Source: an uncultured Neokomagataea sp. | GTDB lineage: Bacteria > Pseudomonadota > Alphaproteobacteria > Acetobacterales > Acetobacteraceae | Assembly (NCBI RefSeq): GCF_946476835.1 | Contig: NZ_CAMKWA010000010.1 | Span: 1 to 64,000 of the forward strand | Reading direction: 5' to 3' | DNA: 64,000 nt | Shown here: positions 27,978-33,047 of the stretch, one piece after another | Layout: every line of letters begins with the position of its first letter | Position numbering within the stretch: position 1 is the first letter of the stretch | Translations under genes and position numbers: made by a program | The notes under the pieces: generated by a model | The model's input: the letters and a program-made list of their open reading frames with translations, nothing else | What the model was told of the DNA's origin: nothing | Databases searched by the model: none

Positions 27978-29540
27978 ATGGCAAGACGAATGAATATGAC
28001 GCGGCGCTTCACGGTTACGACCCCAATTTTTTACGTTAATGGCGCGCCGCATATCGGGCATGCCTATACCTCAATTGCTGCGGATGTTTTGGCGCGCTTT
28101 CATCGCTTGAAGGGCCATGACGTTTTATTCGTGAGCGGCACGGATGAGCACGGTCAGAAAGTCGCGCAAACGGCAGAGGCGCAGGGCATGGATGCCCAGT
28201 CTTATGCTGATGGTGTGTCTGCATCGTTTCGCCAGATGCAAGATGACATGGCAGTTTCAAGCGATCTCTTCATACGGACAACGTCAGACGTGCATAAACG
28301 CGCTGCGACGGCCCTGTGGGAGCGGGTGGCTGCAAATGGTCATATTTATCTGGGCGCGTATGAGGGGTGGTATTCTACGCGTGATGAAGCCTTTATCGTG
28401 GAAGACGAACTGGTTAAAAAACCAGATGGTACGATGGTTGCACCATCTGGTGCACCTGTCGAGCGTGTAAAGGAACCTTCTTACTTCTTCCGTCTGTCTG
28501 ATTTTGAAGACCGTTTGTTGAAGTTGTATGAAGAAGAGCCTGACTTTATTGGGCCACACGGCCCTAAGCGTGAGATCGTTAGTTTTGTAAAGCAAGGTCT
28601 GCGTGATTTGTCGGTATCACGGACCAGCTTCGACTGGGGCGTGCCTGTTCCGGGTGATCCGAAGCATGTGATGTATGTCTGGTTTGACGCATTGGCGAAC
28701 TATCTGACCGCAACGGGTTTTCCTGATGCCGATGCTGACCGGGCAGGGTATTGGCCTGCAGATCTGCATATTGTTGGGAAAGAAATTGCTCGTTTCCACT
28801 GTGTGTATTGGCCTGCTTTCTTGATGGCTGCTGGTTTACCCTTGCCAAAGCGCGTGTTTGCTCACGGCTGGTGGACCGTTGAAGGCGAAAAGATGAGTAA
28901 GTCTTTGGGTAATGTTCTAGACCCGAAGGCGCTGGCTGATGAGTTTGGGTTGGATGCGTTGCGCTTCTTCCTGATGCGTGAAGTGCCGTTTGGTGGTGAT
29001 TCTAATTTTAGCCGCCGTTCAATGATCACGCGGACCAATGTCGAATTGGCAAATGATTTAGGAAATCTTTGTCAGCGTACATTGAGCCAAATTGCACGCA
29101 ATTTGGGTGGCATTTTGCCACAACAAGGAGCGCGTACGGAAGATGATGACGCTATTTTAGCGGTGGCTGCTGCGCTGCCAGAAGTGGTTTCGGAGCAAAT
29201 GGAGCGTTTGGCACTGAATGAAGCTCTGGAAGAAATCTGGAAGCTTATCCGTGCCGCGAACTCTTATATTGATCGTCAGGCACCATGGGCGCTGAAAAAG
29301 ACAGATACGGACCGTATGGCGGATGTGCTGCGCGTGTTGGTAGACGTGATCCGGACCATTGCAACCTTGTTGCAGCCTTATATGCCAACGACGATGGACC
29401 GTATGTTGACGCAACTTGGCGTGGCAGAAGATGAACGTACAGTTGCTGCACTGGCTACGGCTTTGCCGGCGGGGCGTGAGTTGCCAAAACCACAAGGGTT
29501 GTTCCCGCGTTTTGTTGAGGCTGAAGGCAAGGATTCCTGA
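27978..29540 (+). CDS. metG: Methionyl-tRNA synthetase
   Basis: About 520 residues, class I synthetase. HIGH motif as PHIGHAYTS near residue 21, the catalytic KMSKS in GEKMSKSLGN near residue 303, and an anticodon-binding helical domain. It lacks the C-terminal dimerisation domain of longer MetG proteins. Starts possible at ATG 27978, 27990 or 27996; all keep the core (TTPIFYVNGAPHIGH). Within the coding region, 29108-29120 carries an exact copy of the 13-bp repeat found upstream of the POT transporter gene (see findings). The stop overlaps the tatD start by one base. Confidence 0.96.
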   Translation: MARRMNMTRRFTVTTPIFYVNGAPHIGHAYTSIAADVLARFHRLKGHDVLFVSGTDEHGQKVAQTAEAQGMDAQSYADGVSASFRQMQDDMAVSSDLFIRTTSDVHKRAATALWERVAANGHIYLGAYEGWYSTRDEAFIVEDELVKKPDGTMVAPSGAPVERVKEPSYFFRLSDFEDRLLKLYEEEPDFIGPHGPKREIVSFVKQGLRDLSVSRTSFDWGVPVPGDPKHVMYVWFDALANYLTATGFPDADADRAGYWPADLHIVGKEIARFHCVYWPAFLMAAGLPLPKRVFAHGWWTVEGEKMSKSLGNVLDPKALADEFGLDALRFFLMREVPFGGDSNFSRRSMITRTNVELANDLGNLCQRTLSQIARNLGGILPQQGARTEDDDAILAVAAALPEVVSEQMERLALNEALEEIWKLIRAANSYIDRQAPWALKKTDTDRMADVLRVLVDVIRTIATLLQPYMPTTMDRMLTQLGVAEDERTVAALATALPAGRELPKPQGLFPRFVEAEGKDS

Positions 29541-31152: not shown

Positions 31153-31386
31153 TTGCTAAGGAATTGGTGTGTTTTCGTGAGAAAATGGCCGATTTCTTAT
31201 ATATCAGTTGGCATAATATATATTATACGACAAACCTCGGTCTGAAAAATATACCCTTTCCTCGGCGTATTCCATTACATCTGTCCGTGCATACATTCGT
31301 TATGGTTGCATGCAGATATTCATTTTGGTCGTATAGTTTCAGAATTGAGCTGTTTATCGGCTTGGTTTGGTTGGAATAGCGAATTA
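31153..31386 (+). other. AT-rich intergenic stretch, no gene seen
   Basis: This stretch lies between the MBL hydrolase gene and the repeat array. Short reading frames exist but none has a convincing start or family. It is clearly richer in A and T than the flanking genes. Apart from the AT palindrome noted separately I see nothing definite; it should contain the promoter of the transporter gene. Confidence 0.4.
31213..31226. repeat. 14-bp perfect AT palindrome
   Basis: ATAATATATATTAT reads the same on both strands, inside an AT-rich patch (31195-31230) that stands out from the surrounding sequence. It could be a promoter -10 zone, a DNA-bending site or a regulator site; nothing decides between these. 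Confidence 0.5.
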
Positions 31387-31563
31387 ATGGCATTTTGCCA
31401 TGATGATGATGTTGTTGTGGGTCGTATTGGCAATTTAGGACAAAATGCCATAACGCCATAAATGGCAAAATGCCACGGGATGATTTATGGCATTTTGCCA
31501 TTCGCGCAAAAGTGATTTGTGGCATTTTGTCCTAATTGAGGGTTGTGGCACTTTGCCATTTAT
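31387..31563. repeat. Array of six TGGCATTTTGCCA-type repeats with nested inverted repeats
   Basis: Copies of the 13-mer TGGCATTTTGCCA (or close variants, either orientation) begin at 31388, 31438 (inverted), 31463 (inverted), 31488, 31520 and 31546; distances between starts are 50, 25, 25, 32 and 26 bases. 31388, 31463 and 31488 match exactly; 31546 has one change; 31438 and 31520 share the ending GTCC. Arms pair: 31435-31450 with 31520-31535 is a 16-bp perfect inverted repeat, enclosing 31461-31475 with 31488-31502, a 15-bp perfect inverted repeat with a 12-base loop. The copies at 31458-31476 and 31545-31563 are inverted with 18 of 19 matching. The array ends about 84 bases before the likely TTG start of the transporter. 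Confidence 0.9.
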
Positions 31564-31646
31564 CTCCCCTCCCTCTTTACCTCGCTGTGGGTTCCACCTA
31601 CGGACATGCTCTGCATGTTTTATCCCTGCTGGACCGAGGAACTCCC

Positions 31647-33047
31647 TTGAGCGAATTACCAATTGAAGGTGTGACGGCAGAACGCCGCGCTACACCTATG
31701 ATGACGACTGGCCCGCAATTGTTTGGCCATCCATTGGGTTTGTGGTTCTTGATTGCTACAGAAGTCTGCGTTGCGTTTTCGCAGTATGGGTTGCAGTCCA
31801 TTTTTGTCTTGTATTTGACCAATGCATTGTTGCAGCCAGGGCACATTGAGCATGTGGTCGGTTTTGGTGCTTTGGCGGCCTGCGTAAAAGCCATTTACGC
31901 ACCAATTGGCACGAAAGCGATGGCTGCGGGGATTACGGGCCTTTTTCTCACACTGATTTTTGCTGTTCCCTTGTTAGGTGGCATTGTCGCGGACCGGCTA
32001 TTGGGGCGGACACGGACCATCATTTTGGGTGTGGTTTTGCTCACCTGCGGGCACTTGCTCATGTCTTTCGAGTGGAGTTTTGTGTTTGCATTGGTGTGCT
32101 TGATTGCAGGCTTTGGTGCTGCTGGCGGCATGAAGGCGCAAATCGGTGCTTTGTATACGGTTGATGACCCTCGCCGCTCCGAAGCGTATCAGTATTTTCA
32201 ACTTCTCTTTCAGACCGCCCCCATTGTTTCACCGCTTATCTGCGGTGCTTTGGCTGCATATGCTTGGCACTGGGGCTTTTTGGCCGCAGGTTTGGGAATG
32301 TTGGTAGGTATGGTGATTTATTTGGCTGGCCTGAAATGGCTACCGACTGAAGCACCACTCAAAGAGCATAAAACAATACGTGTATCTTTGACGCGACAAG
32401 AGCGCCGTTCTGCGATTGGGCTAGTTTTGATTTTGCCAGTTTTAGCGTTGGCCGCCCTGCCCAACCAGGAAATTTTTGACGGCTATATGCTTTGGGCGCA
32501 AGAGCATTATCAACTCAAACTGTTTGGTTGGGATTTCCCGGTCAGTAGTCTTATTTCGTTAGATGCCGTGATCGGCACGTTAACGGCTATATGGGTGCTG
32601 GCTTTTTGGCGCTGGTATGCACGTTTTTGGAAAGATCCGGCTGAGATTACCAAAGTCGCTATTGGGACAATTATTGCGGGGTTCGGGCCTTTATGTCTCA
32701 TTGTCGGGGAAAGCTTTTCTCCCGGTACCCATGCGTTAAGTCCATTATGGGGCATTGCTTTTCATACGTTCAATGACATTGGTTTTGGTATGAATTATGC
32801 CATTGGTATGGCGATGTTCTCACGCGTTGCACCTGCGAGTTTGAATACCATTTTGGTCGCAGCTTTTGTGCTTCATCTTGCCGTGGCGAATTTGATTGTT
32901 GGCAAGCTTTCCACGTTGATTGACCGTATTCCAGACTTAACGTTTTGGTGGTTACATACGGGAGCAGCATTTGCCGGAGGGGCGGTTCTGCTTCTATGCG
33001 CGATTTTCTTTAAGGATGTGTTTGATCCTACAGGGAAAGACGCTTAA
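31647..33047 (+). CDS. POT/PTR family transporter (peptide/MFS type)
   Basis: 466 residues with about 14 hydrophobic segments. The first helix region ATEVCVAFSQYGLQSIFVLY aligns with the POT signature, and GGIVADRLLGRTRTIILG with the loop between helices 2 and 3; later segments (YQYFQLLFQTAPIVSPLICG) also fit proton-dependent oligopeptide transporters. The family's ExxERFxYYG motif is degraded: E39 is kept but E-R is V42-A43 and the first Tyr is Gln, so coupling may differ. The start is TTG 31647, with AGGA at 31637-31640 and good spacing; upstream in-frame starts would run through the repeat array. A strong terminator follows. Confidence 0.85.
   Translation: MSELPIEGVTAERRATPMMTTGPQLFGHPLGLWFLIATEVCVAFSQYGLQSIFVLYLTNALLQPGHIEHVVGFGALAACVKAIYAPIGTKAMAAGITGLFLTLIFAVPLLGGIVADRLLGRTRTIILGVVLLTCGHLLMSFEWSFVFALVCLIAGFGAAGGMKAQIGALYTVDDPRRSEAYQYFQLLFQTAPIVSPLICGALAAYAWHWGFLAAGLGMLVGMVIYLAGLKWLPTEAPLKEHKTIRVSLTRQERRSAIGLVLILPVLALAALPNQEIFDGYMLWAQEHYQLKLFGWDFPVSSLISLDAVIGTLTAIWVLAFWRWYARFWKDPAEITKVAIGTIIAGFGPLCLIVGESFSPGTHALSPLWGIAFHTFNDIGFGMNYAIGMAMFSRVAPASLNTILVAAFVLHLAVANLIVGKLSTLIDRIPDLTFWWLHTGAAFAGGAVLLLCAIFFKDVFDPTGKDA

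Follow-up and report, generated by a model that had tools for sequence, protein, structure and literature searches.

The six palindromes upstream of a POT-family gene in the window (the whole 64-kb, Neokomagataea-type stretch of DNA analysed here, from a 2.44-Mb genome in 33 contigs) probably constitute, with a likelihood that we place at about 0.7, the operator cluster of an autoregulated, domesticated phage-type XRE repressor, whose regulon, resembling that of a gene transfer agent (GTA), would include the POT gene. The same core and spacing, TGGC-N5-GCCA, occur at the POT array, at the gene for the XRE protein and at a separate phage-type cassette, and the presence of the motif at all three places, its conservation and its fit with the presence of XRE are documented at the level of sequence.

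The palindrome array in the window

The palindromes start at 31388, 31438, 31463, 31488, 31520 and 31546, with start-to-start spacings of 50, 25, 25, 32 and 26, and recomputing the positions returned the six copies and the spacings of the original prediction. Predicted operator copies 1 (31388-31400, TGGCATTTTGCCA) and 3 (31463-31475, TGGCAAAATGCCA) match TGGC-N5-GCCA exactly, and copy 4 (31488-31500), which again reads TGGCATTTTGCCA, is the complement of copy 3. Copies 2 (31438-31450, GGACAAAATGCCA, the complement of copy 5) and 5 (31520-31532, TGGCATTTTGTCC) are degenerate on one side each, with GGAC and GTCC replacing TGGC and GCCA, and copy 6 (31546-31558, TGGCACTTTGCCA) has its end 88 bp upstream of the POT start codon. 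The longer pairings that had been claimed for this region, of 31435-31450 with 31520-31535, of 31461-31475 with 31488-31502 and, at 18 of 19 positions, of 31458-31476 with 31545-31563, hold as well.

Four exact TGGC-N5-GCCA sites fall within the 171 bp of the array, and the 64-kb window holds seven, against a mean of 2.2 and a largest value of 6 in 100 shuffles. The remaining three are isolated, at 29108 (inside metG), 45301 and 49130. The metG site (29108-29120) is an exact TGGCATTTTGCCA that lies at the same place in genome G001 and is probably a coding chance. Matches to TGGCANTTTGCCA are ordinary in number, both in the window with up to two mismatches (14 versus 10.8 expected) and in the genome with up to one mismatch (24 versus 23 for the reversed control); RTGGC-N5-GCCAY occurs at 27 places in the window's own genome versus 12 for the control. 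The array is unusual by its clustering, which is far beyond chance, and loose-match numbers are not enriched. Copy spacings of 25-26, 27-28, 32, 36-42 and ~100 bp were met across the arrays compared, a variety that does not sustain the earlier argument from near-constant spacing to cooperative binding. Adjacent copies are exact inverted complements of each other in 9 of 47 unique pairs, against 2.2 in shuffles (p 0.0002), a result that depends on curation of a hand-made set with related members (four spurious sites excluded, five kinds of two-mismatch copies kept, six masked copies added). This excess among neighbours, which the operator reading does not explain, may stem from inverted duplication.

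Conservation of the array at the POT promoter

The POT/PTR2-family peptide transporter gene (31647-33047, plus strand, with a probable TTG start after GAGGAA) encodes a protein matching PF00854 (E 2e-12) and TIGR00924 (E 6e-30, below the cut-off of that model). Orthologues are present in all 26 genomes of the genus, those at loci G022 and G001 being 97% identical, and the array stands at the orthologous promoter in 25 of them, G005 being the one without. Each of these 25 genomes carries three to six palindromes, three to five of them exact TGGC-N5-GCCA sites; since a direct DNA match to the window array is found in only 8 of the 26, it is the motif that has been kept and not the spacers. Beyond the genus, 17 POT loci were inspected among the 20 genomes with a POT match, and arrays are seen in two further genera, represented by G127 (five exact sites) and G097 (six exact sites of seven). 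The other 15 loci show no exact site, and six of these show one or two sites when one mismatch is allowed.

The distance from the last operator to the POT start codon is 76-89 bp (sd 4.3) in 23 of the 25 genus arrays, G013 and G023 being omitted since their start codon was not found. A block, TCTTTACC (31574-31581, plus strand), is conserved 12-17 bp past the last operator in most genus genomes, the automatic pick being off in G011 and G013. Between the phnP-like gene and POT, no sigma-70-type promoter scored above chance, the one weak match lying on the opposite strand. The right half of the last operator (TTGCCA), which the TTTACC block follows, was considered as a -35 box, a role that is not claimed for it, TTGCCA being kept in only 19 of 25 last copies. 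Immediately before the POT ribosome-binding site, a short inverted repeat (31585-31630) reads ACATGC-TCT-GCATGT in the window and CGCAGG...CCTGCG in Gluconobacter-like members.

A 29-bp dif-like Xer site with an 11-6-11 layout (AGTTGGCATAATATATATTATACGACAAA, 31206-31234, plus strand) lies between the phnP-like gene and the array, ~150 bp upstream of the latter. A site with up to four mismatches to that of the window accompanies POT in every one of the 26 genus genomes, in one copy each; six of the 26 also have dif-like variants that differ in the centre and lie on other contigs, and these may be plasmid Xer sites. Of the 17 non-genus POT loci, 11 have a dif-like site no more than 530 bp upstream of POT. 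The distance from this site to the first operator ranges from 48 to 171 bp (sd 25, n=25), and the steadiness of the array-POT distance against the looseness of the array-dif distance indicates that the array belongs to POT and that the dif-like site is a neighbour, not a part of it. GC skew offers only fair evidence for a replication terminus at this position: in G011 the skew maximum falls at ~2.3-2.4 Mb and the dif-like site at 0.02 of 2.48 Mb, close by yet some 100-150 kb off (21 samples), and the skew does not change sign across the 64-kb window. Contigs G011:C1 and G005:C1 start at dnaA-dnaN-recF-gyrB, ~20 kb from the dif-like site, and the skew minimum of G011 lies near 1.0 Mb, so that dnaA seems to be far from the origin. 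A dif site with a different consensus has been claimed for Acetobacter cerevisiae, according to the accessible portion of the source (PMC13209655).

An XRE/HTH gene flanked by the same motif

Among the matches listed, the motif RTGGCANNNTGCCAY led within the genus to a second conserved locus, that of a 130-aa XRE protein (P0001; gene at G000:C6:69623-70012). An HTH_3 domain (E 9e-10, 38.9 bits versus a curated cut-off of 23) is the sole domain found in this protein, and its nearest solved structures are the P22 C2 and ICEBs1 repressors, of which P22 C2 ranks first in a sequence comparison with the PDB (E 4e-5). The gene is present in 26 of 26 genus genomes, with 82-100% identity, and was detected in 11 of 150 genomes of the family, corresponding to 8 of 102 genera. 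A TGGC-N5-GCCA site lies 28-29 bp ahead of the XRE start codon at 34 of 34 loci and another at about -74 at 31 of 34; downstream, at ~+575 to +650 of XRE, at least one site is present at all 34 loci and two at 32. All four flanking sites are found at 29 of the 34 loci and at least three at every one. At the loci read, the downstream pair brackets a promoter-like TTGACC-N17-TAATTT that faces the XRE gene; at L137:1990-2040 and orthologous places this element has the palindrome as its spacer, faces the 3' end of XRE and may give rise to an antisense transcript. In a survey of 299 family genomes, the strict double-site pattern was found in four genus genomes and in one other (G261), at a prophage-like place ~1.2 kb from an XRE homologue that is 65% identical to P0001 over 102 aa.

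The original prediction had read the repeats as multiple operators of the transporter, to be bound by an unknown regulator, and had named the orthologous promoters of related genomes and a single accompanying regulator gene as the places where the proposal would be decided. The repeats are kept at the POT promoter of 25 of the 26 genus genomes and the motif flanks one XRE/HTH gene at 34 of 34 loci, both of which support that proposal. All three genera with POT arrays have XRE. Taking genomes with no match as listed, arrays are present in three of five XRE-positive POT genera versus none of nine POT genera without a detected XRE (Fisher p ~0.03, worked by hand, with genera treated as independent and 17 of the 20 non-genus POT genomes inspected). 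Two genomes, G071 and G074, have XRE and POT and no array, and G005 has XRE and its sites and no array.

Phage-type genes beside the motif

In all six genomes viewed (G000, G011, G127, G074, G196, G033), XRE is divergent from phage head genes and stands beside an RND efflux operon. The cluster spans ~22 kb in G000 (C6:69600-91300; L188, L189) and consists of contractile-tail phage genes, with PHROG matches to small and large terminase subunits, portal, scaffold, major head, tail sheath, baseplate and tail fibre; judged by these matches, G000 carries the complete set of head and tail genes that is expected of a GTA. No integrase or phage replication gene was found among the PHROG matches of the 20 larger G000 proteins scanned. 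In the five genomes besides G000 the cluster was judged by the likeness of predicted proteins, and the ORF rule missed some head genes in G033 and G074. Gene order places the cluster at one position, with the same RND efflux neighbours, in six genomes that represent at least five genera, which suggests vertical descent at that place. The 22-kb cluster is a candidate GTA of acetic acid bacteria. Predicted provirus contigs of 20-22 kb in IMG/VR carry the same XRE and terminase. In a survey from 2007, a phage portal and a further phage protein of Gluconobacter are listed among those specific to the Acetobacteraceae (PMC2241609).

Elsewhere in G000 (C22:5328), a single site follows a -10-like box and is itself followed by an intrinsic terminator and two phage-type genes. 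In this phrog_3108 cassette, the second gene was found in 33 of 38 genomes searched, and at 28 of the 30 loci inspected in these 33 the exact site lies upstream of the cassette, between a TTG.....TCTATATT-like promoter and an intrinsic terminator. The exceptions are G074, whose site differs by one base, and G149, where XRE was not detected and the terminator stands without a site; in G097 the site directly precedes the second gene. The intrinsic terminator that separates the operator from the first gene of the cassette (L209:2030-2089 and orthologues) is also present in the operator-free G149, an arrangement that suggests control by antitermination. No PHROG or Pfam name was obtained for the cassette genes besides phrog_3108, a family of unknown function. 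In Vibrio phage K303 a gene called holin precedes the homologue, and this position, together with a reading of the sequences, suggests that the function of the cassette is perhaps lysis. Another G000 site precedes the gene of a small membrane protein (C24:9160). A phage-lysozyme gene (P0002, C12:60431), whose ATG has an operator 30 bp upstream, was considered as a member of the regulon and given little weight, since it is present in only 3 of 26 genus genomes.

Discussion

The arrangement of these sites suggests a regulatory circuit in which a small phage-derived XRE/HTH repressor, whose gene lies apart from the array, would recognise TGGC-N5-GCCA at three places. It would control its own gene and the divergent head-tail cluster through the sites 29 and ~74 bp before its start codon, the separate phage-type cassette (probably for lysis) through the site directly behind the -10 box, and POT through three to seven sites. 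The XRE protein itself presumably binds these sites and, at the phage-type promoters, would act as a repressor; the cassette site lies over the expected start of transcription and is hence placed as a repressor site would be. The sites flanking the XRE gene point likewise to autoregulation. The POT sites stop ~80 bp short of the start codon and the search located no promoter, so that the control of POT may be repression or activation, and the number of sites may provide cooperative or graded control. On this view, a host transporter would have been recruited into the regulon of a GTA-like system.

Why a peptide transporter should be functionally tied to a phage-type cluster is obscure. One version of the repressor model, which we regard as a long shot, would have the repressor turned into a host regulator that ties peptide uptake to the release of phage-like particles. 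POT would import small peptides and the array would render POT dose-sensitive to the repressor; the imported peptides, or the nutrient state that they report, would then relieve a repressor that has no self-cleaving domain, and peptide supply would decide the making and release of GTA-like particles. Arbitrium phages, which make peptide-driven decisions, offer a loose parallel.

Several other explanations of the array address the same observations. The nested hairpins might act in the POT mRNA, as an attenuator or stability element, and the perfect nested stems, a window region that folds better than its shuffles (z -5) and the excess of inverted-complement neighbours all speak for such a leader RNA. 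When copies were swapped across genomes in random orientation, however, the folding energy was mostly unchanged (mean z -0.65), with an effect at p <=0.05 in 5 of 27 arrays, so that the strong fold is explained by the palindromes themselves and no folding beyond their own is seen. Stem number and nesting also vary between species, at the XRE gene and the cassette the palindrome stands alone or in pairs that are not complementary, and an Rfam search of the array returned no family at gathering score, with a sub-threshold microRNA match only. The hairpin-attenuator reading advanced earlier fares worse for these results, and a leader RNA is unlikely. The companion suggestion of a mobile-element remnant falls with the finding that the array is an orthologous fixture and not a dispersed repeat; a mobile palindromic repeat of the REP or MITE type was rejected on the strict double-site pattern, which occurs once in the window's own genome and, outside the genus, in G261 only among 299 family genomes. 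An array that serves mainly as a sink, in which weak to strong operators reduce the unbound repressor and define the level at which the phage-type switch flips, would make POT irrelevant; the three to seven sites at POT, against two to four at the switch, and the half-degenerate state of some copies would suit this role, for which a fixed spacing to the POT start codon is nevertheless unnecessary, and we consider it quite unlikely.

The dif-like neighbour raises a different prospect, that the array has a task at the chromosome terminus, where a dif-adjacent protein would take part in resolving dimers or in handling the terminus, and that POT is a bystander. Plasmid Xer sites such as cer do use neighbouring protein-binding sequences, and the dif-like site accompanies POT throughout the genus and at the majority of the other loci inspected. 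The end of the array tracks POT, however, and not dif (sd 4.3 versus 25), most genera with dif beside POT lack the array, as do the three dif-like sites found in other genera of the family (G026, G033, G034), and the same operators are found at phage-type genes far from dif, all of which makes a terminus function very unlikely. Both cer and accessory proteins are named in the accessible portion of PMC5357621. Finally, another regulator with a similar motif might bind at POT, its likeness to the XRE-linked sites being due to chance or descent. The two genomes with XRE and POT and no array (G071, G074) would accord with such a regulator, yet the core and spacing are identical at all three places and arrays occur only where XRE was found, and we deem this explanation highly improbable.

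Under the repressor reading, an orphan repeat array acquires a candidate regulator that can be named and a regulon that can be tested. If the reading is true, acetic acid bacteria, which include vinegar, vitamin C and insect-gut organisms, keep a phage-type cluster by vertical descent, with its repressor governing a nutrient transporter. Such a system would be a plain example of host physiology brought under phage regulation, and would provide a handle on the inducers of GTA-like systems. A literature search returned no paper on GTAs in Gluconobacter or other acetic acid bacteria, which is not proof of absence, and no Gluconobacter XRE regulator of a peptide transporter; the exact motif was met in print in one unrelated human paper only.

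The proposed system shares features with several known ones. As with the cooperative operator arrays of host transporter regulators, several palindromes stand upstream of one gene; unlike in those systems, the regulator seems to come from a phage and otherwise targets genes of phage type. The XRE protein has a weak NCBIfam match to the RstR-type repressors of dif-integrated CTX phages (E 1.5e-8, 34.9 bits versus a cut-off of 80), and a dif-like site lies near the array, but the XRE gene is not at dif and no filamentous-phage genes were seen near the array. With the lambdoid and P22-type repressors (C2, 434), the XRE protein shares the HTH_3 fold family, paired palindromic operators and a divergent switch region beside its own gene. 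It differs from them in that no peptidase domain for RecA-driven self-cleavage was found in it, that the cluster is fixed beside an RND efflux operon in several genera and that operators are also present before a host gene.

The closest comparison is with GTA control in Caulobacter crescentus, where, as described in the accessible portions of two papers, RogA represses the genes of the GTA activators, gafYZ, and GafY/GafZ then switch on the GTA cluster and about 18 accessory promoters (PMC9632790, PMC11150451). In both cases a small HTH repressor stands, or would stand, over a phage-derived head-tail cluster and over accessory genes located elsewhere, and both feature inverted-repeat operators (GGAA-N4-TTCC for RogA) and terminators in the controlled transcripts. 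The differences, to the extent that those portions cover them, lie in the components: RogA has 213 aa and a LexA/CI-like C-terminal domain, whereas the XRE protein has 130 aa and only HTH_3 was found in it; RogA acts on gafYZ, whereas the XRE motif lies directly at phage-type promoters; and the same portions name no peptide transporter in the Caulobacter circuit (PMC9632790, PMC11150451). By this analogy, the XRE system would be similar to that of Caulobacter in its plan and different in its parts.
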